Source: Sipunculus nudus
Lineage: Eukaryota > Annelida > Sipuncula > Golfingiida > Sipunculidae
Reading direction: 5' to 3'
DNA length: 64,000 nucleotides
Assembly: GCA_026874595.1 (NCBI GenBank)
Contig: CM049314.1
Location: forward strand, 53,055,812 to 53,119,811
The position numbers were made by a program, and so were the translations under genes. The notes below the pieces were generated by a model that searched no databases, was not told the DNA's origin, and saw only the letters and a list, made by a program, of their open reading frames with translations. Below are positions 1,762-63,755 of this stretch, one piece after another. Positions within the stretch are counted from its first letter, which is position 1, and the number at the start of each line of letters is the position of its first letter.

Positions 1762-3203
1762 AAAAACAAGGGACCCATGGGTCACGGCGCTCAGCTGTTA
1801 TATATGATAAAAAATATGATTTGGGAATGAGGCACATGCTGGTTTTGTGTGGTTATAAATATAAGCTTTATTATGAGTTGTTGGTGTTTAGCTTATGTAT
1901 GATTTTGATAGTATCTTTGGAGACAGGGAAGAGGACTGATTTCATTTATTTTATTAACAAATGGAGTGCTATTGTCACACAGATTTTGACTTGGCCATAT
2001 AACTTATAAGCAGCACATATAATAAAAGAGTTTAATTATTTCTTAAAATTTAATAAAAAATATTGTGCCAATATAATTTTTATTTAAAACAAAATAATAA
2101 GAAAATCATATGATTTTTTAAAAAGTGCATTATGTTTGGGCCCATAAATTAAAACAATTACGCAATACTGACATCATGTCTGGTATTTGCATAGCGAATG
2201 TATAGAAAAATATGTATATTATATATGATCAAAATCAGATCAGTGGTTTTGATATTAGGCAATCTTACAGTGTAACAATGGGTTTTTAATGGAAAAATGA
2301 AGTTTTTCATTAATATCTCAAAGGAATTAAGTCCTAGTGATCAAATTCTTGGCATGGTAGGGGATTTTGGAGACATCTAACAGTATGCCAAATTTAAGGA
2401 ACTTAGAGCTGAAGCTGGGGAGCTGAGTTCTAGCAAACTGCATAACACTCGCTTGATGTAAACAATATGTGACATGGTGCTTAAAAACTTGAATAAAATC
2501 TACAATTTTTGATCAAATGGTTTCAAATTTTTGGTGTTAACAGTTGAAATGGTAATAAAAACATGCTTCGAAAATTAAATCCTCAGCAGTTACAGGTTAA
2601 AAACGTGCCATGGTCAAACTTGGGCAAAATTTAAGGAACCAATTTTATATTTTTGCCAATATTTTAAAAAAAAATTTATCAGATTTTGATCTAATTTTTG
2701 GTATACAATTAAATTTTGATTAATTAAAGTTGTATTACTGAAAAAAAAGTCCCTACCTTTAACACTTTTGGTCTTAAGTGACCAAATATCTTTCCTGATT
2801 TTTTTACAAAGTCCATTATGTTTGGGCCCATAACTTTTTAAAATTAAATAATACTGACTCAGTTTCTGGTATGTACATAGGAACTATATAGAGGAATATT
2901 TATGGTAAATATGAAGAAAACCAGATGAGTGGTTTTGATATTAGGCAGTCCTGAAGTGTGAAAATAGATTTCTAATAAAAATTGAGGTTTTTCCTTAATA
3001 TCTCGAAGGAACGAAGTCCTATTGACCCAATTTTCGGCATGGTTGGAGATTTTGGGGACATCTAACTGTATGCCGAATTTCAGATTCGTAGGTCCAATGG
3101 TGTCGAAACGTGCCAGTCTTACGGACGGACATCCGGACGGACGGACGGACGACGGACAATGGACCACGACTATAGCTCAGATGACTTATAGTCAGCTGAG
3201 CTA
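1762..3203 (+). mobile_element. shared-head/shared-tail non-autonomous element, copy 1
   Basis: Starts with the head AACAAGGGACCCATGGG (1765-) including GCTCAGCTG near 1789-1797, and ends with the hairpin TAGCTCAGATGACT / AGTCAGCTGAGCTA at 3173-3203. A short ACGG-type tract (3121-3150) and ACAATGGACCACGAC precede the hairpin. The interior holds two partly duplicated ~1-kb 'A-block' segments containing GTGCCATGGTCAAA, TATGTTTGGGCCCATAACTT and GGAGATTTTGG. This layout (subterminal inverted repeat, tetranucleotide tract, 3' palindrome) resembles bivalve pearl / Helentron-associated elements. No transposase reading frame is present. Confidence 0.75.
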
Positions 3204-3227
3204 AGGAGCTTGCGGCTGCTGAAAAAG

Positions 3228-3281
3228 AGGGGGGGGGGGGGAGGGGTCCGGCCTCCCTGGACCCTCCCCCTGGATGCGCTT

Positions 3282-3325
<44 letters not shown>

Positions 3326-3348
3326 ACACACACGTGTGTGTGTGTGCA
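3228..3348. repeat. G-run and (CA)n(TG)n microsatellite
   Basis: A G-rich run (3229-3245) is followed by a long CA tract (about 3284-3333) that flips to TG (3333-3348), so the junction is self-complementary around ACACGTGTGT. The open frames across it on both strands are composition artefacts. Confidence 0.95.

Positions 3349-5463: not shown

Positions 5464-5465
<2 letters not shown>
5026..5465. other. AT-rich intronic spacer
   Basis: No gene, motif or repeat boundary recognised. Confidence 0.5.
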
Positions 5466-5526: not shown

Positions 5527-5596
5527 TATTACTTCAGCTTATAATGAAACCGGGACATTTGAATAGGGGTATCTTGCATTGTTGATTTGAACTATA

Positions 5597-6755
5597 CAAT
5601 GGACCCCTGGGTCACTGTGCTCAGCTAAAGTTAACCTTGACGGTAATTATCTAAAAAAATCAAATGGAGATAAAGTCTAAGAACAAGAGGTAATGTAGGC
5701 CATGGTAATGATTGATGAAACTATTGCAAATAATATTTTGTAATCTGACAACTTTTTCCTAACGTTGAAACTGAAGCATGTAAGCAGGTTGTGAATATAA
5801 GATCTATACTATTACCATGATCGTTGGTCGGCTTTTTTATATAAACTGTTGACAGTTCAGCAGTTTATACATTTGTCCAATCAGATTCTATTTTATTAAA
5901 ACTTTTTTTTCTATTATATAAAATGTATACAGTTGCCATAACGTTCCTACTCCATAGGTTGAAGGAATTGATGATGGGGGGGGGGGGGGGGGGGGGGGGG
6001 GGAGTTATTGGTTACAACAGCCTAGGATATACATACAGGATATGAAATTTTATTCAACAATGCTAACAGGAGAAGCAGTTTATTCATTATTATTAAATAT
6101 TAAATATTTAAAAACAGGCAAAGAGATGGAAAAACAAAGCAAATTGCTTTAATTCCCATTATATTGAGTGAGATGGGAATACAGTAACTGTGCAGCTGTG
6201 ACAGCAAGGGTGCTCGACCAGTGTTGCATCAGTAATACGGTTACCAAGGCAGGGCTGTTGCGGCCTTTAGCTTGACAATGCAAATGAACATAACAGAGCT
6301 TCTGAAAAAAAAAAGCCTAATTTTTCAGCTTTTATTTGCAAATTTCAGAATTCAATAGATAAAATCCTTATGTGTATCTACTGTCAAATTAAATCAAATA
6401 TACTTACAGGGAAAAAATGTGCCACGGTGAACGTTGGGCATAATTTAAGGTACTGGTTTTATATTAATGCTAAGAACTTAAAAAATTCCAAAATTCAGAC
6501 CTAATTTTAGGTATACAATAGAATCTCGATTAAATCAAATTATATCCCTGAAAAGAAAAACTGATGTGTGGTTTTGATATTGGCAGTCCTCATAGTGATA
6601 ATAAGTTTTAATGGAAATTGAGATTTTTCCAAACATTATGCTGAATTATGGATTCGCAGGTCTACCGGTTTCAAAACGTGCCAGTCTAACGGAAGAACGG
6701 ACGGACGGACGACAGACAATGGACCATAACTAATTTATAGTCAGCCGAGCTAACC
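5597..6755 (+). mobile_element. shared-head/shared-tail element, copy 2
   Basis: Decayed head ATGGACCCCTGGGTCAC ending GCTCAGCTA (5599-5626). It is followed by TTAACCTTGACGGTAAT, the lead-in also seen at 33338 and 60983. The tail is a damaged hairpin whose right arm reads TAGTCAGCCGAGCTA (ending 6752). Inside is a 27-base G run (5976-6002), then GTTACAACAGCCTAGGATATAC and the A-block ending in an ACGG tract (6692-6714). The G run sits at the same module junction as in the 33.3-kb and 61-kb copies. Confidence 0.68.
5976..6002. repeat. poly-G run
   Basis: 27 consecutive G on the plus strand, at a module junction of the surrounding element. A likely site of polymerase slippage and assembly error. 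Confidence 0.95.
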
Positions 6756-17935: not shown

Positions 17936-17959
17936 ATTAACTACATTGTATTTGGCCCA

Positions 17960-18391
17960 ATAGTTGGAATTATTTTTTAATGAATAGTTAAACTCTCATA
18001 TCATTTGTGCAAGTGCTACTCCTGGGCATAGGTAACATGTAATTATTGAATAAAAGTTAACCCCTTTTTAAAAAAGCATGATAATTAACATGACTTATAG
18101 TGGACATATTTTTTCAAATACATCTGCTGCAATGAAGAAAAAATTATTAGGCCAAGTCAAAACCTGTGTGACAAAAGCACTCCTTACCAAATGTAAATAA
18201 TATAAATGACATATTAAGCCCTCTTCCCTCTCCATGAATTTTATCAAAATCTTTACATAACTTGAGTTAAACGCCATCATCCTCATAAATCAGCTTACAA
18301 TACCACACAAAACCAACATTTTTCTCCCCTTCTTCCAAATCATTTTTATGATCATAAATAACAGCTGAGCGCCGTGACCCATTGGTCCCTT
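17960..18391 (-). mobile_element. shared-head element fragment (minus orientation)
   Basis: The head reads outward at 18362-18391 (rc: GGGACCAATGGGTCACGGC, then GCTCAGCTG). The body matches 63342-63755 in inverse orientation, for example TTTGACTTGGCC, AGTCATGTTAATTATCATG and the block near 17960-18050. No tail hairpin was found, so it is truncated at about 17960. Confidence 0.65.
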
Positions 18392-18770
18392 GTTATTGAT
18401 ACCCGTTAAGTCATGATTTTTTTATAATTATTCTATTCTTAACATTATAGTCGTCATAGTAGCATGTACATGCTAGTGTTTTCAAGATTTTCTGTCTAGC
18501 TCTAAATATATATAAAGCTAGTGGGAAACAAATACAATATAAAAATGATTATATTCCAGTTAGCACTATCTTAAATGAAATATTTGCAGAATGCGTCCAT
18601 TTGGGATTTGATCTGCTTCTTGACAATAAGAGAGAAATAAAAAAGTTATATCACTGCAATGGAAGGTGTTAACAACTTAATATTGTTTAAGAAACTGCTG
18701 TCAAATTTTCAATTCATGACAACACAGAGAACAAACTGACATTTATTGCAAAACAGAATGTAGCCGTGTC
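18392..18770. other. AT-rich spacer
   Basis: No gene or repeat boundary recognised. Confidence 0.4.
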
Positions 18771-26192: not shown

Positions 26193-29100
26193 TAACAAGG
26201 GACCCATGGGTCACGACGCTCAGCTGAATTTTGGAAAATATTAGTAACTGCAAAATATTTTTATTTCTAATGGTTTTTCCATGTATATTACCATTTGAAA
26301 AGCTAAGAGAAAATGGCCCAGCTTAAATGAAACTCTGTAAATTATAGTATAATGGACATGAGCTAAAGCATATGGACTGTGTAATAAACCTTTGGCCTGA
26401 AACCATTCAGTGATGCACCAAGGGAAAAAATGGGCCTACGGTAAGTGTCATATAAAAGTTCCATTTCATAAACAAATAATGTGTGAAGGTAATTAAGTTT
26501 TCAAAAGTTAAATATATGGCCATATGAGTTAAAAATTAATCCCACAAAGTTTGACCTATATTCCTAATTTTAAAAACTAGGTTTAACAGTGTTATTCACA
26601 CTTAGGCCCCACCAACTTTAAGAGATATGAATGAAATGCTACCAAGTATTTATATCTTCTTAAATCTTGTCAGTTAGCACTTACATTAGGTCCTAATATT
26701 TTACCATATTTGAATATAAGGATTAAATTCCTGAACATTTTTTTCTTTAAAAAAAATCAAAATTGTCCAAGTCTCAACAAAAAGAATTTTTTAACATTAA
26801 AATTATAAGCTTTGTCTTGTATATTAGTCCTGTATATCAAAGCCGTGGGTCAGGGAGAGGTCTCTGTTGTTACTGTTCATCGCTGAAAAAATGTGAAATT
26901 ATAAGATTCAGCTTGTTTAGAGTACAGGTCTGTCAACAGAATGGGGTGGGGGGGGGGGGGGGGGAGAGAAAGGCTCCCTGTGGTATTTATGCTGGCCAAG
27001 CCAAAAGAAGTATACGCTCATCGAGCAGCTACAGGTTGCTGCGGTCAAGACCTCAGCCCTGTGCGCTCCTTAAGCATGTTCTCTGAGCCAACAGTCGCAG
27101 TGCCACGCCAAGCCAATCAGGGAGCCGTAGAGGGCGCCATCCTCTCTCCTGGGTTGTTGTTCTTGTTAGAAAGCTACAGCATCCACAGCCACAAAGCCAG
27201 AAGCAACCCGCATTCCCTCCACCGATCCCAGCAGTGGAGACCGAGCCATGCCATTCAAGAGCCGAACTCGATCCTTGTGAACGACCTTACTTCGAGACCT
27301 GCTGGCAGCCTGATCAAGCTCAACAAGAGAGAGGGCTTGCTGGAGTGATGGGATTACATAACAGCCTGGGGAGCATAGAGAGTTGCACTGAATGACCTAC
27401 AGTGACCTCAGTGGACTGCTTGACAATGTAAGGGAATACAACAAGAGCCTCCAAACAAATTCAATAACTAGCCTAATTTTGCAGCTTGTATTTTTCAAAT
27501 TTCATATTTTAACAGATTAAATCCTTATGTGTACATGCTGTGAAAATAACATCCACAGTACTTACAGGAAAAAATCGTGCCATGGCCAAAGTTGGGCAAA
27601 ATTTAAAGTACTGATTTTATATTTATGCTAATAGCTTAAAAAAACTGCAAATTTTATATCTAATTTTTGGTATACAATTGAATCTTGATTAAATGATGTT
27701 ATATTCCTGAAAAAAAGTCTCAGCCATTCTTATGTTAAGTGAGTTAATATATATCCTGATTTTTTACAAGGTGCATTATGTTTGGGCCTATAACTTCAAC
27801 AAATTATGCAATTCTGACCTAAATTTTGGTATGTACATAGGAAATGTATGGAAGAATATGAATATTTACAATTACATCTAACATTATGCCAATATTTGGA
27901 TTACCAGGTAAACAAAAGTAGGGTCATGATCCTAGAAAATACAAATACATTAAGGCTTCTAAAAAACTTCAATAGCTAGACTATTTTTTAAGCTTATACT
28001 TTCAAATTCAAAATTCATCAGATTAAAAATCCATATGTAAACTGGCTGTGAAAATTTAATCAATTGTACTTATAAGAAAAAAACGTGCCATGGTCAAATT
28101 TAGGCAAAATTTAAGGTACCAATTTTTATATTTTTGCTAATATTTTAAAAAATTTAACAGATTTTGATCTAATTTTGGGTATACAATTTAATTTTGATTA
28201 ATTAAAGATATATTACTGGAAAAAAGTCTATAGCTTTAAAATGTTTTGTGTTAAATGATCAAATATCTTTCCTGATTTTTTACAATATGCATTACGTTGA
28301 GCCCCTAACTTTTTTTAAATCATATAATACAGACCTTATTTCTGGCATGTACATAGGAACTATATAGAGGAATATTTATGGTAAATATGAGGAAAAACAG
28401 GTGAGTGGTTTCATAGTTAGGCTGTCCTGAAATGTGAAAATAGTTTTTAATAAAAAATTGAGGCTTTTCCTTAATTTCTCAAAGGGACGAAGTCGCAAAG
28501 ACCCTGTTTTCGGCTTGGTAGGAGATCTTGGGGACATCTAACATTATGCCAACAACCTTTGGAGCACAGAGAGCTGCACTGAATGACCAACAGTGACCAC
28601 AGTGGACTGCTTGACAATGTAAGGGAATACAAAAAGAGCTTAAAAAAGAATTCAATAACTAGCCCAATTTTGCAGCTTTTATTTTCAAATTTCAGATTTT
28701 TACAGATTAAATACTTATTTGTACATGCTGTGAAAATTAGATCCACAGTACTTACAGGAAAAAAACGTGCCATGGTCAAAGTTGGGCAAAATTTAAGGTA
28801 CCAAATTTTTTATTTTTGTTAATATTTTAAAAAATTTAAAAGATTTTGATCTATTTTTGGGTATACAATTTAATTTTTATTAATTAAAGTTATATTACTG
28901 GAAAAAAGTCCATAGCTTTAACATGTTTTGTGTTAAGTGATCAAATATCTTTCCTGATTTTTTACAAAATGCATTATGTTTGGGCCCATAACTTTTTAAA
29001 ATTAAATAATACAGACCTAATTTCTGGCATGTACATAGGAACTATATAGAGGAATATTTATGCTAAATATGAGGAAAAACAGATGAGTGGTTTCGATATT

Positions 29101-42439: not shown

Positions 42440-43860
42440 CAGGTCAGTTGCCATAGTGATGTCTGGACCCCCCTGGTTGTACTGAGTGACCTCTTGACTT
42501 GCCTGCTGACACTAAGCATGTTGTCAAATCTGTTTTCAAACACAGAAAGCCTTTTTCAATTTTCCACACTCCTTTTTTAAGCTGCATTTACCCAATCTAT
42601 TTTTATTAAAATAGCAGAACCCTACCATAGAATAATTCTTGTAAAGTTTAAACATATCAGCCAAATAGTTTCATCATAAAACAGTGTATTAGCTAGAAGA
42701 GCCAAAAATTACATTTTCGCTTGTAAAAAACAAGATGAATGTAGGTGGCGCCACCAATACCTCAATTTCAGATATGACTCATGTGACAAACATTGGCATT
42801 AAATTTGGTGATGACAGCTCCAGCTGTTTCTGAGATTTTAAGTTAAGTATGCTTTTTTGTACAGATGACTAAGTTAAACCTGTAACTCATCTAAAAATCA
42901 CTGAACCTGAGCCATTCAAACAAATTTGCGAGAGATTGTTCAAGGGATCATTTCTGTGAAATATTGGACAATTTGGCTTAACAGTTTTGGAGAAGAAGAT
43001 TTTTATCTCTTTTTTTACTTTTCCTGTATAAAATCTTAGAAAATCACTGAATCAAAACCATTTGAACAAATTTGAATTATCAACATATAAGGATCATTCA
43101 TGTGTAAGATTAAAGAATTTGACCCAGTGGTTTTTGAGAAGAAGATCTTTGTTGCGACTGAGCAGACATGGGCTGCTTTAACATTTGACTATATTTAGCT
43201 TCCCATTACTCGGCCAAAAGTCTTTGAACAGAGACCATTTGAACAAACTTAAGAAAGCACTCCCCTAGGAGCATTTCTGTGCAATATTAAACAATTTGGC
43301 TTTATGCTTTCAGAGAAGAAGTTTTTTGTAGCCCTATGTATGCCTAGGGCACCGTTGACCCCAATCAAAAAGACCAATGCAGGTGGCGCCACCAATACCA
43401 CCAATTTCAGATATGACTCAAGTGACCAACATTAACATAAAATTTGATGATGATAGCTCCAGCCGTTTCTGAGATTGTAATTTTAGCATGCAAATGACTA
43501 AGTTCAACTTCCTGTAACTCGGTCAATAATCACCGAACTGGAACCATTCAAACAAACTTGAGAGAGATTGTTCCAGGGAACATTTCTGTGAAATATTGGA
43601 CAATTTGGCTGGAGAGTTTCAGAGAAGAAGATTTTAAAATGTTTTTAAGCTTTCTCTCTATAAAATCTAAATTAATGCAGATACCGAATAATAAGCTCTT
43701 AGGCACCAAGTTTCACATGTGACTAATTTTTACATGTAATTTGGAGCTGCTAGCTCCAACAGTTTCTGACTTACAGCCATGGACAGCAGACGGCCAGCCC
43801 TGGACAGTGGAGGGACGCCACTGCGCCATAACATAAGCTCACAGGTTCACCAATGATGGA
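42440..43860 (+). mobile_element. 'family B' element (TAAGCTCACAGGTT tail), copy 1
   Basis: Two or more ~640-bp units starting near 42740 and 43380 with AGGTGGCGCCACCAATACC, TTTCAGATATGACTCA and ATGATAGCTCCAGC. Each contains AACTCGGTCAATAATCACCG and TGTGAAATATTGGACAATTTGGC. The tail ACGGCCAGCCCTGGACAG, then ATAAGCTCACAGGTTCACC, ends near 43850. The same tail ends copies at 56960 and (inverted) 52208. No coding. Confidence 0.68.
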
Positions 43861-46816: not shown

Positions 46817-47040
46817 GGCCAAAAAAAACAGGTATGGTTCTCAGGCAACTTTATTTAGAAATCGTTGTAAGTGGGTGGTATTTTAATTTTTTTACCTCTT
46901 TGAATGTTTCGATAAAATTGTTATATGATTAGGGAACGGCAAAAACATAACCATTTTTTTGCTAAACAGGTAAAAGCACTACATAAAAAGTATTATTTAT
47001 CTTCTTGACAGATAAAAATAACAAGGTCTACAGGCCTAAT
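46817..47040 (+). mobile_element. Harbinger-type MITE, left part
   Basis: GGCCAAAAAAAACAGGTATG then GTTCTCAGGCA equals the left terminal repeat of the complete copy at 58335-58673. The interior ACAGGTAAAAGCACTACA also matches it. The right terminal repeat is missing here. Confidence 0.65.
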
Positions 47041-47190
47041 GCCAACCTGTGCATTGGGAAATACACCAGGTATAATGCTTCAATACTGGACCATTACTTT
47101 TCATGTATATGAACAATACAAGTACCAAACATTTTGAATAAGAAACAATTACATAAACATCACTGCTGAAATTCTGGCATGGGTGCACAC
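47041..47190. other. spacer
   Basis: Nothing recognised. Confidence 0.4.
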
Positions 47191-48588
47191 ATCACAAAAA
47201 TGATTGTAGCTGGCACCACCAGTCTTGTATACGACAAAACTATCAGAGATATATACATATGCCCAATTTCAGGCTGATAATATCAAATTCCTCTGTAGAT
47301 ATAAGGAGGCACATATATTGTGCAAAAGTTTTTGTTATGCACTAATGATATATTCTTATCACTCCATGAGCTGATACAAAAGGGAGTCATATATCACAAG
47401 TGTCACTGACAATTATGGGCACATAGTGAGATGTACCAGTTGTGAGTGCCATATAGTTATATATACAAGAAAACAAGAAAAATAGAGATGGTCTACAAAA
47501 TAAGTTATTGTGAACATCCCTGACCTATGACCTTGGCCTTTTGCCCACATATCAACTGGATTCTTTCTAAATGATGGGTAACTACTTACCACTTACATCT
47601 GGCTGGGTGTAATTACTTGGCAACCAATGAGTGAATAACTTAGAATAACTTTAACCTCCTGACCAGCTGACCTCAAAATTAATTAGTTATTTCTTCATGC
47701 AAAAAGACCCATAAATATGAAGTTTGAATCAAATTCAGTGATGCATAGATGTGCCATATGTGAAAGACTGAAGGTTTGGGTTGAACAGTTTCACTTGAAA
47801 TATGTTCACAAGCATTTAGAACAATATTGTGACCTTGACCTTTGACCTTTTGAACTCAACATCAATAGGCTTCTATTGGTAGGTAAGCCATATATGACAG
47901 ATGGAAAGTATAGATTGAAAAGTTTGCTGAAAATGACTCCACGCAAGAAGAGGGTGCTGTGAACTTGACCTTTGACCTCAAAATCAACAGGTCTTTTCCC
48001 CTGTTGGCAGAGAAGCGATATCAGTGCTGAAAGGTTTGGAATGAAAGGTCTAGCTTGAAATGTGTCCACAACCTTTTCAAAGAAGTGGACTAGTGACCCT
48101 GCTTGTGACCTCAACATCTATAGGATTCTTCTCCCACTTAGTAGGTGAGCTATATGTGAAAGTTCAAAGAATTGGGATGAAAGGTTTGGCTTAAAATGCA
48201 TCCTGAGGCTTTTCAAAGAAGTTGGTTCTGTGACCTTGACCTTTGACCTTGTGACCTCAAAATAATTATGGTTCTTCCCCTGTTGGTAGGTGAGCTGTAT
48301 GTGAAAGATGGGAGGTTTGGGATGAAAATTTTGGCTAAAAGAATTATTTCTGGGGGGTGCAAACACACCCCATAACTTCAAGAATATAGGTCGCAGTGAC
48401 CTAATTTCAGGTTTGCAAGGAGATCTTTTTAGAACCTCTAAGACTGCATAGGGTTCATGGCCCTAGCCCCTATGGTTACGATTTGTGCCCTGCTAACAGA
48501 CGGACGGCCGGTCTGGCCGGACACACGGAAGGACGCCGGACAAAGACCCATCGCTCTAGCCCAGCATGACTGAAAGTCAGCTGAGCTA
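47191..48588 (+). mobile_element. shared-tail element with diverged DR1 modules (head not seen)
   Basis: Starts in a module with GGCACCACCAGTCTTGTATA (47210), runs through three diverged relatives of the 288-bp unit with exact TGACCTTTGACCT at about 47835, 47970 and 48238. It ends GACGGCCGGTCTGGCCGG (48503-), then the tail TAGCCCAGCATGACTGAAAG / TCAGCTGAGCTA at 48588. The head is missing or unrecognised. Confidence 0.6.
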
Positions 48589-49180
48589 AAAATTGTAGCT
48601 GGCAGCACCAGTCTTGTATACAATGAAGCTATCAGAGATATATACATATGCCCAATTTCAGACTGATATATCAAACCCCTCCTGAGAAAAACGCAGGGAC
48701 ACACACTGTGCAAAAGTCATGGTAGGTGGCAACACCTGTCTTGTGAGCGAGAGAGCCATCAAAGACACATAGACAGGTCAAAATATTAGGCTAATACATC
48801 AAACTTACCTTGAGTCTGATGCATGGGGCTGACCAGGTTTAGGTGAGAAAGGCTGTTGCCCTGAGTGAATTGTGACAAATTGCTTGCTCAGACTACTGCA
48901 CTGAGTGAACTCATGACCTGCACCTGGCTAGACTGAGTGAACTCTTGACCTGTTGCATAATCTGACACAGTGGGCAGTCTGCCAACGCTATAAATAGAAT
49001 GCAGCTACTGCACTGAGTGAACTCCTGACCTATACCTGGCTGCACTGAGTGAACTCTTGACCTGTTACCTAATCTGATACAGTTGGCAGTCTGCCGAAGC
49101 TATAAATAGATCCAGACTGACCTTTGGCCTGTTGACAAATCTGAAATAGAAGCCACATCATAGCATAAGCTCACAGATTG
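48589..49180 (+). mobile_element. family B element, 5'-type portion
   Basis: Contains palindrome relatives (GGCAGCACCAG near 48600, GGTGGCAACACC near 48722) and repeated CACTGAGTGAACTC(T/C)TGACC (48890, 48935, 49010, 49045). It ends near ATAAGCTCACAGATTGGC (49160). The reverse complement occurs at 53680-54640. Confidence 0.6.
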
Positions 49181-49330
49181 GCTCTACATGCATGGGCATG
49201 ACACCCATGAGGTGATCACATGATACTCATGAGGTGATCACATGCTACCCATGAGGTGATCACATGCTGCCCATGAGGTGTTCACATGACACCCATGTGG
49301 TAATCACATGCCTTGTGTTTGGCTGCACTG
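49181..49330. repeat. short tandem repeat CCATGAGGTGATCACATG
   Basis: CATGAGGTGATCACATGMTA-type 24-bp units occur about five times from 49205 to 49310. The core contains GTGATCAC, a perfect palindrome. Confidence 0.85.
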
Positions 49331-50160
49331 ATTGAACTCTAGATCTGTTGCAAAATCTGAAACAGTTGGCAGTTTTTTTCAACCTATTCAATGATACAGA
49401 CACATTCTTTGCCTGTTGGTAAATCTGTTTACACATACTGAAAGACTATCATTAAAAATATCTATAATAATAAAAGTACTTTCATTGTTAAAGGTCCAAT
49501 AGTTCTGCCAAAAATCATTCAAGTAAACTTGAACAAAGGCCACCTAAGAATAATTTTTGTGCAATGTCACAGAAGTTATAATTGATACAACAATTTTGTA
49601 GAAGAACACTATTGCAGTCCTCAGTTTGAAATAGACATAATAATGGCCATAAGACCAACTTAATCTTTTCACGACTCAACCAAAAATCAACAAACTCGAC
49701 TATTCTTATATGATTGAAAGAACCATGTCCTAGGATAATTCTTTTGAAAAATTTAACGATTCAACTTGACAGTTTCATCATAAACATTATAAGCTGAAAG
49801 AGGTTAAAATTATGAGGTTTTTGCCCATAAAAAACAGGTCAATGTAGGTGGTACCACAAAATCTGCAACTTCAAATATGAGTCATGTGACCAACATTTGC
49901 ACAATACTTGGTAATGCTAGGTTCTGTCATTTCTGAGATTACTATGTCAGTATCCTTACTTGCCCAAATAACAAAGTTCAAATTTGTGTAACTCCGCTAA
50001 AATTCATCAAATGCAAACCATTTGAACAAACTTGAGAAGGCTTGCCTCTGGGATCATTGTAAAATATTGAACAATTAAGCTGGACTGTTTACAAGAAGAA
50101 GACTTTTAAAGGTTTTTCAGCCTTTTCCCTATAAAATTTAAGTAAATGCAGATAACAAAA
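49331..50160 (+). mobile_element. family B fragment
   Basis: CTGCACTGATTGAACTC, GGTGGTACCACAAAATC (49847), ATATGAGTCATGTGACC and CAGCCTTTTCCCTATAAAAT follow the family B order; no terminal tail is seen before the next head at 50164. Confidence 0.5.
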
Positions 50161-52207
50161 CAAGGGACCTATGGGTCACGGCGCTAAGCTGTTATATATG
50201 ATAAAAAATATGAATTTAAAATGAGGTACATGCTGGTTTTGTGTGGTAATAAATATAAGCTGTATTATGAGTTGTTTAGCTTATGTATGATTTTGATAGT
50301 ACCTTTGGAGACAGGGAAGAGGATTGATTTCATTTATTTTATTAACAAATGGAGTACTATTATCACACATATTTTGACTTGGCAATATTACTAACAAGCA
50401 GAACATATAATATTAGAGTTTAACCATTTATTAAAAAAAATTACAAATATTGTCCCAAATATAATTTTTATTAAAAATAATAAGAGAATCCTATGATTTT
50501 TTAAAATGAAATATAACTGAAATGATTTTTAAAATAATATTAAAGAATATATTCATGAATGCATTCATGAATACATTTTGAAAGTATTTGCACTGGTATT
50601 TTACTCTCATTTTTACCTGAATTCCCATTCTTTATGCAAAAAAATTTATAATGGAGTACATATTCATATTTGTATTTAAATACAATTGCAAAGTATTCGC
50701 ACCAAGTCTGGTATTTATTCAGTTTCACCAAACAGTGATGTTGAGAATCCAGAATATACCATATTCACACATTTAAATAATGATCATAAGTATCTGGTTT
50801 TATGGCTTTTCTTTATATTAAAAAAAAATAAATGTAATATATTCATTTTGGACTAATTTCACATCAATGTACACACTAGACACAGTAGGAATCTAGATTA
50901 ATATTATCAACTGCATCTTTGTCTATCATTAATTTCCTTCATATGATCCCTAATATTTAGTAATGAATAATATGATTTACTTTTTTATCATTAAAATTGA
51001 ACTGAAAAATACCATAGGTAACTGCATGGTGTTATTTGGAATATGTGACATTCTATCTATCAATACAAGATTCTTATATCATCAGTAACTGCGAGTTAAT
51101 TTCCTGTTATTATACACTAACAAATTCCTTTTCTATTTTTCTTTAATTTGTTATTAAAAACCAATAAAAATTTATTAATTTATTGTTTTTTGTTATGTTG
51201 TTGGTCAAAACTACTAGATGAGTTGGGTTGGACACCTGGATCAACTGTGGCTGTCCATAAGCTTCCTTGGATACCCCAGTGTATGTCTCGCCTCAAGCAT
51301 GCATAATTTGCTGAAAGTTCAACAAGGTCAACATACAGGTGACTAAAGAGGGGCTGGAGAGAGCCAAGGTCTGACATAGTATCATAAAAACATTAATAAA
51401 AGCTACAAATTTTGGCCAATTTCTGTCAGCTTTCTAGACTACAAAGCTGAAATCCTTATGTGTGCATGATATGAAAATTATATCAACAGTGCTCACAGGA
51501 AACAAACGTGCCACGGTCAAATTTGGGCAAAATTTAAGGTACTTATTTTATATTTATACTAATAACTTATAAAATTTGAAAAATTCAGAACTAATTTTGG
51601 GTATTCAATCGAATCTTGATTAAATAATGTTACATCCCTGACAAAAAATCTCTAGCTTCAGCAATCCCCTTGTTAAGGGAGTAAATATATTTGATTATTT
51701 ACAAAGTGCATTATGTTTGGGCCCATAACTTAAAACAATTAAGCAATACTGACATCATTTTTGGCATGTGCATAGAGAATGTATAGAAAAATATGTATAT
51801 TATATATGATTACAGTCAGATCAGTGGTTTTGATATTAGGCAGTCTGGAAGAGTAACAATGGGTTTTTAATGGAAAAATGAAGTTTTTCATTAATATCTC
51901 GAAGGTATTAAGTCCTAGTGACCAAATTCTTGGCATAGTAGGAGATTTTGGAAACAACTAATTGTATACCAAATTTTAGGAACTGAGAGCTGAAGCTGGG
52001 GAGCTGATTTCTTGCAAGATGTAAACAATATAATACATGGTGCTTGAAAACTTGAATAAAATCTACAGTTTTTGATCAACTGGTTTCAAATTTTTGGTGT
52101 TAACAGACAAAATGCTAACAAAAACATGCTGTGAAAATTAAATCCACAGTACTTTCAGAAAAAAAGTGCCATGGTCAAAGTTGGGCAAAATTTAAGGTAC
52201 CAATTTT
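50161..52207 (+). mobile_element. shared-head element, truncated by a family B insertion
   Basis: Head CAAGGGACCTATGGGTCACG with GCTAAGCTG (50162-50191), then the same body as 1798-2160 (GTTATATATGATAAAAAATA, GGTTTTGTGTGGTAATAAAT). A-block pieces follow from 51470 (GTGCCACGGTCAAATTTGGG, GTGCATTATGTTTGGGCCCA, 52170 GTGCCATGGTC). The sequence breaks inside an A-block at 52207 where an inverted family B element begins, so that insertion is younger or the region was rearranged. Confidence 0.6.
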
Positions 52208-54640
52208 TTATTAGCTAACCTGTGAGCTTATGCGATGGTGCGGCCTCGTGCATCATGTGTTGTGCGTTAACCATAGCTATCTCGAAAACGGCAGGAGCTA
52301 GCATCACCAAATTTTTTTGCAAATAATCAGTTATTCAAAAAACTATATCGGATTTTGTTTATTTTTTTTTTCTAACTGCATTTTCTTTGATTTTATATGG
52401 AAAAAGCTAAAAAATCTTTAAAAATCTTCTTCTCCGAAACTGCCCAGCCAAATTGTCTAATATTTTACAGAAATGATCTCTGGAACAATCTTTCTCAAGT
52501 TTGTTCGAATGCTTCCATTTTGGAGATTTTTGGCCGAGTTACAGGAGGTTGAACTTTGTTAACTGTGCAAAAAAGGATATTAAAATTTATATCTCAAAAA
52601 CTGCTGTAGCTATCATCACCAAATTTTATGCCAATGTTGGTCACATGAGACATATCTGAAATTGAGGTATTGGTGGCGCCACCTGCATCTGCCTTTTTTG
52701 TACGGGGTCATCAGTGCCTGTATCCCACTGAGGGCTACAAAAAACTTCCTCTCTGAAACCAAATGGCCAAAATGTTTAATATCGCACAGAAATGATCCTA
52801 GGGTAGTGCTTTCTGAAGTTTGTTCAAATGGTCTCTTTTCAGTGACTTTTGGCTAAGTTATGGGAAGCTGAATTTAGTCATATGCCATAACAGCCCATTT
52901 TAGCTCAGTGGATACAAAGATCTTCTTCTCAAAAACCACTGGGCCAAATTCTTAAATCTACCACATTAATTATCCTCAGATGTTGATAATTCAAGTTTGT
53001 TCAAATGGTTTTGGTTCAGTGCTTTTTGGTTGATTTATAGAATGCTGAACTTAGCCAATTTGCTGTATCTTCCTATTCGAGTTATAAACCTGTGAAACGT
53101 TTTTCAACCGATGCCACTGAAGCCAAGTTTGTAAAATATTTTACAAGAATAATCCCTACAATAATTCTTATAATAATTGTCATAAATGGTACCACATGAA
53201 TGATTTTTGGCTGAATTATGGAGATTGAATTGAGTCATTTTACCATACATGTTAGCAATGTGATGCTGTTACATCAAGCCTAGCACCAGTTTATCAGCAT
53301 CTATTACATCATGCCACTAGACATTTAGATTTCAGGTTATCTTTGGTTAATATTGACAAGAAAGTTTTAAAAGCTTTTAAATGATTAAAGTTATTTATCA
53401 TACCAGACAATGTTACAATCATGGATATTCAGCTCTCTGTGGCTATATAAAGACAACTGTATGTGGATTATAAATTTTTTGTATCCCGACTCAACATAAT
53501 TCAAGAATTTGCCATCAATTATATATATCTGTATTTTATTTTTGCATTCAGTATGCATCCGTAATAATTTTACATATATTTTTATTATAAAAAATCATTT
53601 TTTAATAAAAAGTCAGCTGAAAAGCATTTTGTATTGGGAAAATAAATTTCAAAGTTATTTCAAGTAGGGACCACTTTAATGTACAGATGGCAGCACTTGG
53701 TTTATCATTGGCAGATTGCCAGTGCCTTGATGTTGGCCATTAGCCAAGATGATGTCAGCTCTATAAATAGTTTTGGTACAGTGCCAGGATTGGATCAAGT
53801 GCAGCAAGGTATAGGTCAAGAGTTCAATCAGTGCAGTAGCTGCATTCTATTTTTAGCTTTGGCAGACTGCTCACTGCATCATATTTGGCACCAAAGTTCA
53901 GCCTGAATCTATTTATAGCCTTGGCAGACTGTCAGCTGTGTCAGATTATGCAACAGGTCAAGAGTTCACTCAGTGCAGCCAGGTACAGGTCAAAAGTTCA
54001 CTCAGTTTAGCCAGGTGCAGGTCAAGAGTTCACTCAGTGCAGTAGCTTGAGGCAGCAATTTGTCACAGTTCACTCGGGGGCAACTGCCTTACTCACTTGA
54101 GCCTTGTCAGTTCAGTGCATCAAACTCTGGGGAAGTTTGATGTATTGGACTGATATTTTGACCTGCCTATGCATCTTTGATGGTATTCTCATTTACAAAA
54201 CAGGTGGTGCCACCTACATTAACTTTTGCAGTGCTTATTTCTACAGAGGAATTTGATAAATCAGCCTAAAATTGGGCATGTTAATACATATCGGGTAGCC
54301 CTCATTTTTGGTTGATCTCTGACCTTTCTTCTCTGCCCAGCGTCCATTTGTGCGTCTGTTTCCACGCATAAACCCACATATCTCAGCAACCGTTTGACCG
54401 ATAAGGCTAAAGATTTTGCACAAATGTAGCCCTTGGAAAGCTTTATAACATACACTAAAAACGGTGGCGCCACCTGCAACCATTTTTGCACAGCGTCCAT
54501 CTGTTCATCTGTCTTGGGATAAAATCACTCATATCTCAGCAGTGGTTTGACTTATTCACCTGAAATTTTGCAGGTTTATACATCCTGGACAATTTTCTCG
54601 ATTTTATGACAGGTTGCACCACCTGCATTCACATTTACGC
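52208..54640 (-). mobile_element. family B element, copy 2 (minus orientation, longest)
   Basis: Its terminal sequence reads outward at the left (TTAGCTAACCTGTGAGCTTA, 52210-52229), the inverse of the tails at 43850 and 56960. Palindromes GGTGGCGCCACC at 52671 and 54462 and variants at 54205 and 54612 are present. So are inverted CACTGAGTGAAC repeats (53800-54110) and a 54240-54620 portion related to the 279-bp array of 21211-22115. Family B thus links the two array types in one element. Confidence 0.65.
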
Positions 54641-54935
54641 TGCAGACATCCAAGCTAATATTCAACACACCTCACTCCATTCCCCTTGCCACTTAATCCA
54701 TGCCTCACTTCACCCGTGCCACTTGATTTCTGCGGATACACATAGTCGCTTGTCGACTACCCATATTCTAGTTTTAAAATGTCCAAGTCTGAAACTTGCA
54801 GGTCCGAAACGTCCATTTTGCTGAAATCATAATGACTAAGGTAGATATGCAGGACTTAAGAGGATCAATATTAAATTTTAAAAATTAAAACCTCCATGCA
54901 TACCCCTAAACTTTGCACAGGTTCGCATTAGGCCT
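54641..54935. other. spacer, unassigned
   Basis: CT-rich stretch with CACTTAATCCATGCCTCACT and TGCCACTTGATTTCTGCGG; resembles the short word AGTGAGGCATGGATT seen inverted near 21148, so it may be the far end of the array element. Confidence 0.45.
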
Positions 54936-55515
54936 GTAGGCCTTGTTTTTGTTAATATTTTAAAAAATTTAAAAGATTTTGATCTAATTTTGGGTATACA
55001 ATTTAATTTTGATTAATTAAAGTTATATTTTTGGAAAAAAAGTCCATAGCTTTAACATGTTTTGTGTTAAGTAAACAAATATCTTTCCTGATTTTTTACA
55101 AAATGCATTATGTTTGGGCCCATAACTTTTTAAAATTATATAATACAGACATAATTTCTGGCATGTACATAGGAAATATACAGAGGAATATTTATGGCAA
55201 ATATGAGGAAAAGCAGATGAGTGGTTTTGATATTAGGCCATCCTGGAGTGTGAAAATAGGTTTTTAATAAAAAATTGAGGTTTTTCCTTAATTTCTCAAA
55301 GGAACGAAGTCGCAAAGATCCAGTTTTCTGCTTGGGAGGAGATCTTGGGGACATCTAACATTATGCTGAATTTTGGATTCCTAGGTCTTACGGTTTCAAA
55401 ACGTGCCACATCTACGGACGGACGGACGGACGGACGGACAGAAGGACAGACAGATGGACGGACGACGGACAATGGACCACGACTATAGCTCAGATGACTT
55501 ATACTCAGCTGAGCT
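54936..55515 (+). mobile_element. A-block with intact ACGG tract and tail hairpin
   Basis: GTTAATATTTTAAAAAATTT through GGTATACAATTT, TGTTTGGGCCCATAACTT and GGAGATCTTGGGGAC to (ACGG)n (55415-55438) and hairpin TAGCTCAGATGACT / CTCAGCTGAGCTA at 55485-55515. Headless copy between two family B elements. Confidence 0.72.
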
Positions 55516-55516
55516 A

Positions 55517-56962
55517 AAAATAAGCTGAATCTAACAAAATTTGATATGTAACAGATTATTGCATAAAATCTGGGGATGGTAGCTCCTGCTATTCCTGAGA
55601 AATTATGGGTTTATATACAGATGACCAATGACCCCAGTACAAAAAAGGTCAATGCAGGTGGTGCCACCAATACCTGAATTTCCTATATGACTCATGTGAC
55701 CAACACTGGCATAAAATTTGGTGATGATAGCTCCGGCCGTTTCTGAGACTGTCATTTTAGTATGCTTTTTTGGACAGATGACTAAGTTCAACTTCCTGTA
55801 ACTCGGCAAAAATTCACCCAAATTTAACCATTTGAACAAACTTGAGAGAGCTGGTATAGGAGATTAATTCTGTAAAAAATTTAACAATTTGGCTTGACCG
55901 TTTTGGAGGAGAATATATTAAACAGTTTTTTAGCTTTTTCTCTATAAAATCTAAGAAAATGCAGAGTTTTTCAGATGGCTAATTTTTTGCATTAAATTTC
56001 ATGATGCTAGCTCCAGTCGTTGTAAAATATTAAACAAATTACCTCAGTTGTGTTGTTCAAAAATGTTTAGCAGGTTTAAAACTCACATAGGAAAATACAG
56101 AAAAATGGCTAAGTTATGCTTCCCATAACTCGGCCAAAAATCACTGAACCAAAACCATTTGAACAAACTTGAATTATCAACATCTAAGGATAATTAAATT
56201 TTGAGATTTAAGAATTCGGCACAGTGGTTTTTGAGAAGAAGATCTTTGTAGCCACTGAGCTAAGACAGCCTGTCATGGCATATGACTAAATTCAGCTTCC
56301 CATAACTCAGCCAAAAGTCACTGAACTGAGACCATTTGAACAAAATTCAGAAAGCAGTACCCTAAGATCATTTCTGTGCGATATTAAACAATTTGGCCAT
56401 ACAGTTTCAGAGAAGAAGTTTTTTGTAGCCCTCAGTATAATAAGGGCACTGATGACCCCCATACAAAAAAGGCCAATGCAGGTGGCGCCACCAATACCTC
56501 AATTTCAGATATGACTCATGTGACAAACATTGGAATAATATTTGGTGATGATAGCTCCAGCCGTTTCTTTTTTGGACAGATGACTAAGTTTAACTTCTTG
56601 TAACTCGGCCAAAAAAACACCGAACTTAAACCATTCTAACAAACTTGAGAGAGATTGTTCCAGGGAGCATTTCTGTGAAATATTGGACAATTTGGCTGAA
56701 CAGTTTCAGAGAAGAAGATTTTTAAAGGTTTTTAAGCTTTTTCCCTATAAAATCTAAGAAAATGCAGTTAGCCAAAAAATAAGCAAAATCAAATAGAGTT
56801 TTTTAGATGACTAATTTTTTGCATAAAATTTTGTAATGGTAACTCTTACCGTTTTCAAGATAGTATGGGTTAACAGACAGACGACGGACAACAGACGACC
56901 GCCGACGGACACCGGATGACGGCCGACGCCACACCATCGAATAAGCTCACAGGTTCGCTAAA
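55517..56962 (+). mobile_element. family B element, copy 3
   Basis: Two tandem ~830-bp units with GGTGGTGCCACCAATACC (55655) and GGTGGCGCCACCAATACC (56482), CATATGACTCATGTGACC and GATAGCTCCRGCCGTTTC. The tail is ACGACGGACAACAGACGACC, CCGACGCCACACCATCGA, then ATAAGCTCACAGGTTCGC (56942-56959). Best preserved tail of the family. Confidence 0.72.
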
Positions 56963-58679: not shown

Positions 58680-59245
58680 AAATATATTTTTCCCAAATTA
58701 CTGAATGTGACATGGAGGATAACTGCTTCAGGGGAGTTCACTGGTCCGTGAAGAAAAACACATGGCCTGATCCGCGCATCTAATTAAGCTTATGTGTTCT
58801 TGACAGCTAAAGTTGCTAAGGCCTCACAGTGGATGTATTGAGTTGATAACCTGTTTGTGTACTGACTTAACACTGTTACCCTTGTTTTGATCTTTCTAAG
58901 TTTGTTCCTTTGTGCTTCTCTGTTTGTAAACTCACTCAAAGTTTGGTCAGAGTTAATATCAACAATCTATACCTGCAGTATCTATGTAGCCTATATGATC
59001 TTCCCATATGTTGTGTTTAAAATAACGCCTTGATGTAATGAAATCACACAAGTGCCTCATACAAGATTTCATGCTATATCATTTACAATATTCCCATAGG
59101 TTACAGCACTAGTTATCTTATAACAAGCATGCCGTGTGCAAACATTAATTATGGCGGCTTTGACCCAAACCCTCAATTCATTGAATATAAATGCTACCTT
59201 TGCAAGCTGTATGTATACATACAGAAATTTGCTAATTTCCTTTAA
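58680..59245. other. spacer
   Basis: No gene or repeat recognised. An open frame begins at 59136 and runs into the next element head. Confidence 0.4.
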
Positions 59246-59760
59246 ACAAGAGACCCATGTGTCACAGCGCTCAGCTGATCATGATTATAAATGTATTGTG
59301 GACTATAAATGTATTACCATTTTGATACTATATAGAGTCGATAAAGGTTATGAATACTATATAGAGTCGATAAAGCTTATGAAAAGCATGGACATGTTGG
59401 GCTGTATGTGTAGTGTATGGAAGTCTGCAAGATTTCAATTAGACAGACATAATGTTATGATTACCTATGCTGATGAGGGGATTTATGAATTTGTGATTGT
59501 ATGACATGATATCTCTTTGGTCTTGACAAGGTAGTACATTATTTTGATGCCCACCACATCTACATATTACACAATATTGACAATTTCTGGCATGCACATA
59601 GGTACCTATGGACAAATAGTTATACAGAATTTAAAATTATGAATATGTCTGATTCGTCTTGTTCTTGTTTACTGATGCTAACATTAGGATGGGGTTTGGA
59701 GAAGGGAATAGTGAGGGCAGCAAGGAGGGGTGGATGTAGAGAGAAAAGAAGGGAGAGAGA
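59246..59760 (+). mobile_element. shared-head element fragment
   Basis: Head AACAAGAGACCCATGTGTC with GCTCAGCTGATC (59247-59281). ACTATATAGAGTCGATAAAG is directly repeated (about 59327 and 59351). A-block-like ACAATTTCTGGCATGCACATAG (near 59577) is present. No tail before the GA repeat. A 122-codon frame (59136-59504) crosses the head and is not credible. Confidence 0.5.
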
Positions 59761-60590: not shown

Positions 60591-60945
60591 TGGGTGGGGG
60601 ATGAAGGAAGGCATAGGGGTGAGAAAGAATGAAAGAGAGAGGGGGGGGGGGGGGAGAGAGAGAGAGAGAGAGCTAGACTGCCAGAGAGAGAGAGAGGGGC
60701 TTTCTGGTTATTTACTGCCTGACCAAGCATGACCAAGACACTCACAGAGGCAGTAGGCCAGGAGTGAAGGATTTATGTAACAGCAAGCACACTGCATACA
60801 AATGACTTGATGTAAAAAATCAAGACATGGTGCTAGAAAACTTGAATGAAATCTACCTTTTTGATCAATTGGTTTCGACAGGTTTCAACTGATTTTAACA
60901 GTTGAAATGCTTACATGTGTACATGCTGTGATCCACAGCACCATC
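60591..60945. repeat. G-rich and (GA)n tracts plus spacer
   Basis: G run and GAGAGA tracts at 60635-60700, interrupted by CTAGACTGCC; then an A-block-like piece (CTTGAATGAAATCTACC) repeating 2480-2520 and 52030-52070. Confidence 0.6.
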
Positions 60946-63259
60946 AGGAAACAAGGGACCCATGGGTCACTGTGCTCAGCTGAAGTTGACCTTGAAGGTA
61001 AAAATCTAAAAAAATATCAAATGGAGATAAAGTGTATGAGGAAGAGGTAATAAAAGCTGTAATTGGTTTATATGATTGGTTTTTTGATGAGCAAGAAATT
61101 GTATTTGCAAATAATATTTTGACCTGACCAAGTGTTTCCTAATGTTGAAACTGAAGTATGTGAGCAGTCTGTGAACAAATGATCTGTACTATTACCAAGA
61201 CCATTAGTTGGCTTTTTGATTAACTGTTGACATTTCAGTAGTTTACACATTTGTTCAATTATATATATGTATTTTTTTAATGAAATGTATACAATTGAAA
61301 TATAACTAATTAACAACATGAAACAGGGCAACCCAAACCTTAATCTCAAATTCTGCCATGGCAGGAAAATAATGTTTGTATTAAATCCTCATTTTTTTTC
61401 GCATCAATTTTTTTAAAAAATTAAGTTTATATTTCTATACATTTCCAATATAACATATATATCTGAATATAAAAGTTGAATCATAATTCTCAATTGCATC
61501 ATCATAAATCTCAATCTTGTTAGACAACACCACATCATGCATACAAATGTTTATTTATTTTTTACCACAAAACTATATCTTTTAAATCTGCAAAACAATA
61601 AATATCTAAAAATAATACTTGATTTAGATTTCACAATTGTTAATTGTGTCTTTTTTTATCCATAATGTGCTTCATATTTTATAAATTTAAGCTTACTGAT
61701 GGGTTCAATTATATTTGTTAAAATCATTTAAAAGAAAATTGATTTCTTTAAAAATACTACATTACACAACATTGCATCTTCTGGATTACACCTTGAATTA
61801 CTTTTTCAAGGAAAGTTTTTGCATATCGAAGTGGAAACAGCATTACAATTAAGGAGATACAGTGAAAACAATAACAATTACTGCATAACACATGGTGGGT
61901 TGGGTTTGGGGGGGGGGGGCAAGGGGGGGGGGGTTGATATGAGAATAACTGTACACCTGTCACAGCAGGGGATCTCCCCCAGTAACTGTAACAAATCAGA
62001 AACCCTGGCATAGCTGACTTCCAGTGACCTTGACTGTGACCCTGCATCTGTAATCAAAGCAAATGATTACAATAGAGCCTCAAGAAAAAAATCAATAACT
62101 AGCTTAATTTTCAAATTTCAGATTTAAACAAATTTAATATTTATGTTTACATGCTTTGAAAATTAAATCAATGGTACTTACAGGAAAAAAACGTGCCATG
62201 GTCAAAGTTGGGCAAAATTTAAGGTACTGAATTTATTTTTATGCTAATAACTTAAAACATTCACTAAATTCAGGTCAAATTTTGGGTAAACAATTGAATC
62301 TTAATTAACCATAGTTATAAACTTGGGAAAATAGACTCTAGTGTTATGTTAACTCTAGTTTCATGTTAAGTGAGTAAATATTTTTCCTGATTTTTTTAGA
62401 TATGAGAATAACTGTACACATGTCACAGCAGGGGATCTGCCCCAGTAACTGTAAGAAATCAGAAACCCTGGCATAGCTGACTTCCAGTGACCTGGACTGT
62501 GAACCTGTATCTGTAATCAAAGCAAATGACTACAATAGAGCCTCAAGAAAAAATCAATAACTAGCTTAATTTTCAAGCTTTTATTTTCAAATTTCAGATT
62601 TAAACAAATTTAATATTTATGTTTACATGCTTTGAAAATTAAATCAATGGTACTTACAGGAAAAAAAACGTGCCATGGTCAAAGTTGGGCAAAATTTAAG
62701 GTACTGATTTTATTTTTATGCTAATAACTTAAAACATTCACAAAATTCAGATCAAATTTTGGGTAAACAATTGAATCTTAATTAAACATAGTTATAAACT
62801 TGGGAAAATAGACTCTAGTGTTATGTTAACTCTAGTTTCATGTTAAGTGAGTAAATATTTTTCCTGATTTTTTACAAAGTCCATTATGTTCGGGCCCATA
62901 ACTTGAAGAATTTATACTTAACAGACTTAATTTCTGGCATGTACATAGGAACTATAAAGAGGAATATTTATGGTAAATATGAGGAAAAACAGTGGTTTTG
63001 ATATAAGGCAGTCCTGAAGTGTGAAAATAGGTTTTTAATAAAAAATTGAGGTTTTTCCTTAATATCTCAAAGGAACGAAGTCGCAAAGACCCAGTTTTTG
63101 GCTTGGTAGGAGATCTTGGGGACATCTAACATTATGCCAAATTTTGGATTCCTAGGTCTTACGGTTTCAAAACGTGCCACATCTACAGATGGACAGACGG
63201 ACGGACGACGGACAATGGACCACGACTATAGCTCAGATGATTTATAGTCAGCTGAGCTA
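60946..63259 (+). mobile_element. shared-head/shared-tail element, copy 7 with internal duplication
   Basis: Head GGGACCCATGGGTCACTG with GCTCAGCTGAAGTTGACC (60955-60990), C-block (61500-61860), interrupted G run (61908-61933), A-block and tail hairpin (63229-63259) after a short GGACGG tract. The segment starting GATATGAGAATAACTGTACA occurs at 61935 and again at 62399, a 464-bp internal direct duplication. Colinear with 33305-34901. Confidence 0.78.
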
Positions 63260-63341
63260 AAAACCTGCCATGGTCCAAATTTCCAAATTTGGACAAAATT
63301 TAAGGTACTGATTTTAAATTTCAGCTTATAACTTAAAAAAA

Positions 63342-63755
63342 GGGACCAATGGGTCATTGCTAAGAGCTGTTATTTATGATCATAAAATATGAATACAAAG
63401 AAGGGGTAGTCAAACGTTGGTTTCGTGTGGTAATATAAGCTGATTAATGAGGATGATGGTGTTGAACTCAAGTTATGTAAAGATTTTGATAAAATCCTTG
63501 AAGGGAAAGAGGGCTGATGTCATTTGTATTTTTTACATTTAGATAAGGAGAGCTATTGTCATACAGGTTTTGACTTTGGCCTAATAACTTTATCAACATT
63601 GTAGCATAAGTATTTGAAAAAAAAATGTTCACTGTAAGTCATGTTAATTATCATGCATGCTTTTTTACAAAGGAGTTAACTGTTATTCAATAATTACAGG
63701 TTACTCATACCCTAGAGTAGCATTAGCACAAATGATATGAGAGTTTAACTATTTT
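63342..63755 (+). mobile_element. shared-head element, copy 8 (inverse of the 18-kb fragment)
   Basis: Head GGGACCAATGGGTCATTG (63342-) with AGAGCTGTTATTTATGATC. The body matches 17960-18391 in reverse orientation. No tail hairpin before the window edge. Confidence 0.62.

Follow-up and report, generated by a model that had tools for sequence, protein, structure and literature searches.

The question raised by a 64,000-nucleotide stretch of the Sipunculus nudus genome (assembly GCA_026874595.1, contig CM049314.1, positions 53,055,812 to 53,119,811; hereafter the window, whose own coordinates are used below) is what kind of mobile DNA keeps the same two ends around quite different interiors. 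The original prediction, made from the letters alone, described a modular superfamily with one head, one tail and interchangeable middles, and attributed it to rolling-circle elements of the Helentron type. We conclude with high confidence that the elements are HINEs, i.e. non-autonomous Helentron-type rolling-circle elements, which are small, make no protein, share their ends, differ in their interiors and are nested in one another here. The families in the window are new members of a type of element described before in oysters and flies, as judged by comparison of descriptions. The predicted "head" is the 3' end of the element and the "tail" its 5' end, and the canonical strand is mostly the minus strand of the window.

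All 11 heads and all 10 tails that had been named are present, above shuffled expectation. With up to three mismatches, the head pattern GGGACCCATGGGTCAC gave 18 strand matches at 10 places in the window (shuffle mean 0.17, largest 2) and the tail pattern TAGCTCAGATGACT 27 matches (shuffle mean 4.98, largest 12). The head at 36951 is too diverged for the pattern and was recovered by a profile scan, which found 11/11 heads (E 1.7e-13 to 1.5e-8; ten on the plus strand and one, at 18394-18358, on the minus strand), 10/10 tails (E 2.3e-18 to 1.1e-10) and, in addition, four weaker tails, all on the plus strand (45342-45370, E 4.7e-6; 26141-26195, degraded and directly before element E4, E 5.1e-5; 38036-38081, E 7.3e-4; 44134-44153, E 0.014), these E-values being partly a matter of construction because the copies scored had also served to build the profiles. 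Tail matches on the minus strand (E < 0.05) coincide with plus-strand tails and represent the hairpin read backwards. The canonical strand is minus for 10/11 heads and 14/14 tails, the opposite orientation being found for one head and no tail. In the whole genome (1,426,538,692 bases or 1.43 Gb, 153 contigs), the exact family-1 head with its subterminal inverted repeat (subTIR), ACAAGGGACCCATGGGTCACNNNGCTCAGCTG, occurs 6,874 times (3,429 on the plus and 3,445 on the minus strand), and its backwards control on neither strand (0 + 0). An exact scan of viral contigs with the two end patterns gave no match, comparison of the window with Rfam gave none either at the gathering thresholds, and a Pfam search of four window frames at E 0.01 returned a single match, which lies below its cut-off.

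The polarity of the original prediction has to be reversed, since the anatomy of HINEs is found on the other strand. On the canonical strand, the 5' side of family 1 consists of a T-run followed by TAGCTCAGCTGACT (the 5' subTIR), a short loop, the inverted repeat AGTCATCTGAGCTA, a GTCC-type microsatellite and the interior; the 3' side is composed of CAGCTGAGC (the 3' subTIR), a short spacer, the palindrome GACCCATGGGTC, which is present at sequence level, and CCTTGT, usually followed by a T-run. In short, the end pair is TAGCTCAGCTGACT ... GGGTCCCTTGT. The head motif is indeed inverted in the tail, as had been noticed: GCTCAGCTGA near the 3' end has an inverted copy at the 5' end, exact over 9-11 bp. 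The inverted repeat complementary to the 5' subTIR and the adjoining ACGG/GTCC-type repeat are present, with a first arm that is recognisable in 8/10 strong tails and unrecognisable in those at 6752 and 34901, and two of the microsatellite arrays beside 5' ends were also listed by a tandem-repeat finder. As single-stranded DNA, the 5' end is predicted to fold into a hairpin whose stem reaches 13 bp and has one mismatch; this structure is far more stable than shuffled sequences in three good copies (z -5.2, -3.4 and -4.5) and less clearly so in two worn ones (z -2.1 and -1.7). HINE identity is thus supported by the joint presence of 5' subTIR, complementary inverted repeat, GTCC-type microsatellite, 3' subTIR and palindrome, by the recurrence of the same ends in eight complete elements and in the 6,874 exact genomic 3' ends, and by the stable predicted 5' hairpin of good copies.

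Where exactly the elements end was examined by joining the 80-bp flanks from each side of the eight complete elements and searching for matches that span the junction. Such empty sites were obtained for three of the eight, namely E6 (33306..34901, six matches), E10 (60951..63259, one) and E8 (50160..55516, two). At all three, the element went into an A-run (T-run on the canonical strand), and the target is not duplicated; in the best E6 and E8 matches, joined flanks and empty site differ by a 4-nt gap at ACAA, which assigns ACAA to the element and leaves no duplicated target. The predicted boundaries were therefore nearly right for these three elements, the true end lying about 4 nt (ACAA) outside the head as first drawn. 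In the prediction's orientation, this outermost ACAA is exact in 8/11 heads, and at least four A directly follow 9/14 tails (a T-run on the canonical strand). The three empty sites in A-runs without duplication and the A-runs after the tails again argue for HINEs, and the published HINE substructures, the A/T-run targets and the missing duplication together uphold the Helentron-type assignment of the ends. Cut-and-paste miniature inverted-repeat transposable elements (MITEs) with inverted terminal repeats, an idea already disfavoured, would likewise have short inverted repeats near both ends, and the Pearl elements of bivalves were first called MITEs before being filed as non-autonomous Helentrons (PMC7492417); here, however, the symmetric terminal inverted repeats and target duplications of such transposons are replaced by asymmetric repeats of 9-11 bp and three duplication-free empty sites, and this origin is hardly credible. 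Canonical Helitrons, with 5' TC, 3' CTRR and insertion at an A/T junction, were rejected, as the elements start with TAGC, end with CTTGT and lie inside an A/T-run. Ends of Helitron2-type elements, which combine asymmetric terminal inverted repeats with a palindrome at either end and lack an endonuclease, come closer than those of MITEs: the sequence shows this asymmetry, with an inverted repeat that reaches the very tip of the element at its 5' end and lies about 20 nt from the tip at its 3' end, and each end has a palindrome or hairpin, in keeping with published Helitron2 ends. Nevertheless, the combination of subTIR, inverted repeat, GTCC-type microsatellite, 3' palindrome and T-run targets is the published HINE set, and we regard Helitron2-type ends, as opposed to those of endonuclease-encoding Helentrons, as unlikely.

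Head and tail stand together at the boundaries of eight elements, as predicted, all with the minus strand as canonical strand: E1 (1766..3203), E2 (5596..6752, with a worn 5' hairpin), E4 (26195..29370), E5 (30072..31590), E7 (36944..37910) and the above-mentioned E6, E8 and E10. Among the 28 pairs of these elements, 12 have no detectable similarity between their interiors, whereas heads are 71-94% and tails 65-97% identical; shuffle controls reached at most 61% for one head pair and 62% for one tail pair (300 shuffles each). The claim of unrelated interiors between the same ends is thereby substantiated, and it provides another reason for HINE identity. Comparison of the 300-nt stretches on the inner side of the 11 heads in the window yields 6 classes, and the same rule divides 41 heads (these 11 and 30 from chromosome-1 loci) into 10 classes, which we read as about 7, because the initial ~50-60 nt of two of the loci (L014 and L035) are also those of a larger class and a third (L034) is an H1-type head interrupted by the end of a second family described below. 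By the 300-nt rule, 13/14 tails form one class, the microsatellite helping to link them; 110 nt further in, the 14 tails fall into classes of 8 and 4 plus two singletons. On this small sample the 3' side is more variable than the 5' side, since 6 classes among 11 heads stand against two main classes and two singletons among 14 tails. The raw sequence thus confirms HINEs as end-defined cassettes, in that an end with 6,874 exact copies carries at least six 3'-side types in a single window.

The combinations of the two sides are informative in this respect. An A-block occurs in E1, E2, E4, E6, E8 and E10; E5 and E7 lack it and share part of another, B-type 5' side, E7 having a 3' side of its own. 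Three different 3' sides are combined with the A-block 5' side, namely H1 (E1, E8), H2 (E2, E6, E10) and H3 (E4), and they show no similarity to one another over the first 200 nt from the head inwards. This finding speaks against the view that HINE middles are not exchanged at all and that independent divergence, expansion, deletion or filler capture around old conserved ends produced the variety, a possible though not the probable explanation. In its favour, a diverged domain of ~110 nt is common to the 5' sides of A and B type, so that part of their difference is divergence; tandem A-blocks differ in number between elements (tandem in E4, duplicated in E10); E1 represents the E8 type with an internal deletion; and the authors of the oyster study favour filler insertion and cut-and-replace models (PMC7492417). 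The status of E1 follows from seven genome copies (L002-L008), the best matches after the window itself in an E1-based search in which 40 of 9,276 candidates were scored: they match E8 through a ~1.2-kb part that E1 lacks, which makes E1 an internal-deletion relative of E8 and no extra type. A head swap in E1, considered for the reason that most matches cover just 350-1443 of E1, was dropped because of this ~1.2-kb deletion. The predicted minimum of three unrelated interior types is borne out by the 6 classes inside 11 heads, but not all types are independent. An exact scan of genome contigs with one A-block motif gave no match.

Established Helitron biology suggests how the elements may move and how their middles may change. 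A Rep/helicase supplied in trans would cut at the 5' end, peel off one strand and stop at the 3' end, and the strand would be joined into a T-run without duplication of the target; because only the ends need recognition, any DNA between a valid 5' and a valid 3' end could move. Interiors would most likely be renewed mainly on the 3' side, by read-through past a worn 3' end up to the next 3' end of the same orientation in a neighbouring or nested copy, and tandem expansion and internal deletion would add to the variety. For Helraiser, published work describes how new 3' ends arise when the existing one is bypassed, an event that is more frequent in the absence of the hairpin.

Neighbouring and nested copies are supplied in the window by two families with different ends, which interrupt each other. 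A family-2 HINE with both ends (52212..54946, plus strand) is nested in E8 in opposite orientation, with TAGCTAACCTGTGAGCTTAT at its 5' side and CACAGGTTCGCATTAGGCCTGTAGGCCTTGT at its 3' side; E1 is the uninterrupted counterpart, its position 2650/2651 aligning to both sides of the insert. The family-2 end pair is TAGCGAACCTGTGAGC ... GGCCTGTAGGCCTTGT, the 5' form being TAGC(T/G)AACCTGTGAGC, and the exact 5' motif TAGCGAACCTGTGAGCTTAT occurs 5,005 times genome-wide (2,550 + 2,455; control 0). In both families TAGC stands at the start, and the other end has a palindrome with CTTGT directly after it, which is no more than an observation on two families. Apart from this insertion, the window contains three more family-2 5' ends and one more 3' end, all with minus as canonical strand: a 5' end at 43833..43852 (2 mismatches), a stretch at 47021..49184 bounded by a 3' end (47021) and a 5' end (49184, 3 mismatches), and the 5' end of DNA interrupted by E8 (56941..56960, an end-pattern match). 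Family 1 lies within family-2 DNA in two cases, since the empty-site matches of E8 (56700-56845 and 43616-43757) are located just inside two family-2 5' ends, and a family-1 5' end with a B-type 5' side and no recognised 3' end (48540..48593, minus; the tail at 48588) is contained in the stretch 47021-49184. The converse, family 2 within family 1, is seen in E8 and at locus L034, where a family-2 3' end begins ~40 nt inside a family-1 head. Family 1 is also inserted into itself: E6 and E10 each lie inside an older A-block, and the 5' end of the A-block element interrupted by E6 is recognisable at 35312..35364 (minus) by profile and empty-site match. A palindrome, GGTGGCGCCACC, with 14 exact copies and 25 with up to two mismatches (3783-56481), is located in family-2 tandem repeats and once or twice in family-1 interiors.

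A source of the enzymes was sought with the Helitron_like_N domain. With 150 of 195 candidates scored, the genome gave at least 143 matches, of which 14 lie in open frames of 1,000 aa or more, and 14 control genomes gave none. One frame, L057 (about C8:80136599 to 80143349), carries DUF6570, OTU and Helitron_like_N domains and a Rep match in a part of 1,204 aa. The existence of these long frames, and of OTU and Rep in L057, adds to the support for HINEs. An inverted-word search for the ends of the L057 element gave just 11-13 nt matches, the best inside 3' tandem repeats; repeats of ~300 bp in tandem follow the frame. Among the Helitron-type Rep/OTU frames L053-L062, two pairs are nearly identical (L053 and L054, 99.7% over 3,612 nt; L061 and L062, 99.2%), and the members of these pairs are situated on different chromosomes or at different places. 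The 99.7% identity suggests recent activity of the Rep/OTU elements. A genome with high-copy HINEs and near-identical Rep/OTU copies is a good place to settle the link between HINEs and autonomous elements.

Several of our results weigh against the HINE interpretation. The joined flanks of E1, E2, E4, E5 and E7 (five of eight) gave no spanning empty-site match. Identity between the subTIRs of the two ends extends over just 9-11 bp, below the published 11-15 bp (12-15 bp in the mite and 13 bp in DINE-1, Thomas et al. 2014, PMC4067079). The predicted 4-bp stem of the 3' palindrome is no more stable than shuffled sequences in 3/3 copies (z -0.26, 0.71 and 0.35). Long frames of Helitron-type Rep/OTU proteins exist, but the predicted autonomous Helentron with the same ends was not found in the single copy whose flanks were examined: those of L057 (2.6 kb before and 3.7 kb after the frame) contain the ends of neither family. 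Finally, no single chimeric event was traced for the read-through renewal that we infer.

The closest known relatives by description are the Cg_HINEs of Crassostrea gigas, for which PMC7492417 reports shared flanks around unrelated central repeats (group 2). They have in common with the elements described here the 5' subTIR, the complementary inverted repeat, a GTCY/GTCC/GTCK microsatellite, central repeats, the 3' subTIR and the palindrome, and also T-rich targets without duplication and insertion into other repeats. In neither system is an autonomous partner linked: according to the same study, ten autonomous elements of the oyster could not be related to its HINEs, and here the flanks of one candidate were examined. 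In contrast to Cg_HINEs, as compared by description and not by sequence, the interiors in the window are longer, with A-blocks of ~0.7 kb, at least six 3'-side types occur on one end, and two families are interleaved. DINE-1, HINE-Mo and Helentrons resemble our elements in their subTIRs, 3' stem loop or palindrome, TT or T-rich targets with a variable number of T, and unmodified empty sites; partner Helentrons were found there and none here, where the flanks of one copy were searched (PMC4067079). Central repeats between conserved flanks are also a feature of Pearl (C. virginica, Anadara), DTC84 (Donax) and MgE (Mytilus), by their mention in PMC7492417 and not by sequence.

Nearly all ends in the window have one orientation, and neighbours elsewhere also tend to share theirs, most strikingly over the first 1.2 Mb of chromosome 1. 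The data comprise the first 100 listed places of each of two end patterns, all on chromosome 1. The first 28 family-1 heads (C1:64037-1169133, 1.1 Mb) have one orientation, and the first 15 family-2 5' ends (chromosome 1, 162 kb-1.04 Mb) have the same one. Neighbouring listed ends agree above shuffles (77/99 against 60.5 and 71/99 against 50.3), for family-2 ends with a family-1 head no more than 100 kb away, the orientation of the closest such head is the same in 32/39 cases (0.54 under circular shifts, p 0.005), and the agreement of all cross-family pairs at 100-300 kb is 0.79 against 0.56. Much of the agreement rests on the first 1.3 Mb of chromosome 1. Beyond it, at 0-20, 20-100 and 100-300 kb, respectively, family 1 agrees in 19/22, 34/50 and 66/97 (p 0.013 in the last bin) and family 2 in 13/13, 36/50 and 67/106 (p 0.006 in the last bin) pairs, with permutation p values from 0.048 to 0.001 over the three bins, and cross-family agreement is weak (13/18, 25/46 and 67/107). 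H2-type heads on C1-C3 without the first 12 Mb of C1 agree in 7/9 cases below 100 kb, 9/20 at 100-300 kb and 26/54 at 0.3-1 Mb.

One conceivable cause is that the single-stranded element is attached to the strand that happens to be exposed at the site, for example the lagging-strand template, in which case thousands of copies would by their orientation record the direction of germline replication forks. The uniform 28/28 heads and 15/15 family-2 ends and the same-family agreement beyond 1.3 Mb support this idea; the weak cross-family agreement there, the restriction of H2-type agreement to less than 100 kb, a failed prediction at chromosome ends and nesting weaken it, and we consider it improbable. 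Among 30 chromosome-1 heads, 13 have HINE DNA within 50 bp upstream, in 12/13 in the orientation of the guest, so that nesting may account for part of the shared orientation at short range. Twelve 10-kb stretches half a megabase from chromosome ends contain 1% HINE DNA, and all three informative ones contradict a simple fork-direction prediction. Target composition as sole cause was rejected, as A-runs of at least 5 are not commoner than T-runs on the plus strand outside elements (149 vs 183); inside elements the numbers are 97 vs 89, and 51 vs 29 for runs of at least 6. Literature searches on Helitron orientation and replication brought up no title or abstract on orientation domains, although work on them may nevertheless have been published. 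Should the bias survive controls, it would give a cheap genome-wide test of rolling-circle insertion sites. Among the repeats of the loci analysed, which were surveyed for an orientation control that does not move by rolling circle, the first in rank is a satellite, and one of the stretches near chromosome ends (L043, C5:500001-510000, half a megabase from the end) resembles throughout a satellite of ~60 bp.

The window also contains end remnants and simple repeats. An H1-type 3' end in opposite orientation (17945..18394, plus) has no 5' end that could be found, a family-1 3' end at 59244..59279 (minus, by profile) has no matching 5' end assigned, and an H1-type 3' end at 63338..64000 (minus, by profile) belongs to an element that runs beyond the window. 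The motif TGACCTTTGACCT, which we take to be the nuclear-receptor DR1 motif, has 10 exact copies, and 18 when one mismatch is allowed, always on the plus strand and never on the minus strand (23537-25317, 30412 and 47521-48237); several copies sit in tandem arrays related to the interior of E5, whose repeats are related to the array at 23.5-25.4 kb. A tandem duplication of 299 bp with 100% identity (38405-39003) adjoins a tract of 35 G and is either recent or an assembly artefact, and a 49-bp minisatellite (31662-33001, ~27 copies, 93% matches) lies between E5 and E6.

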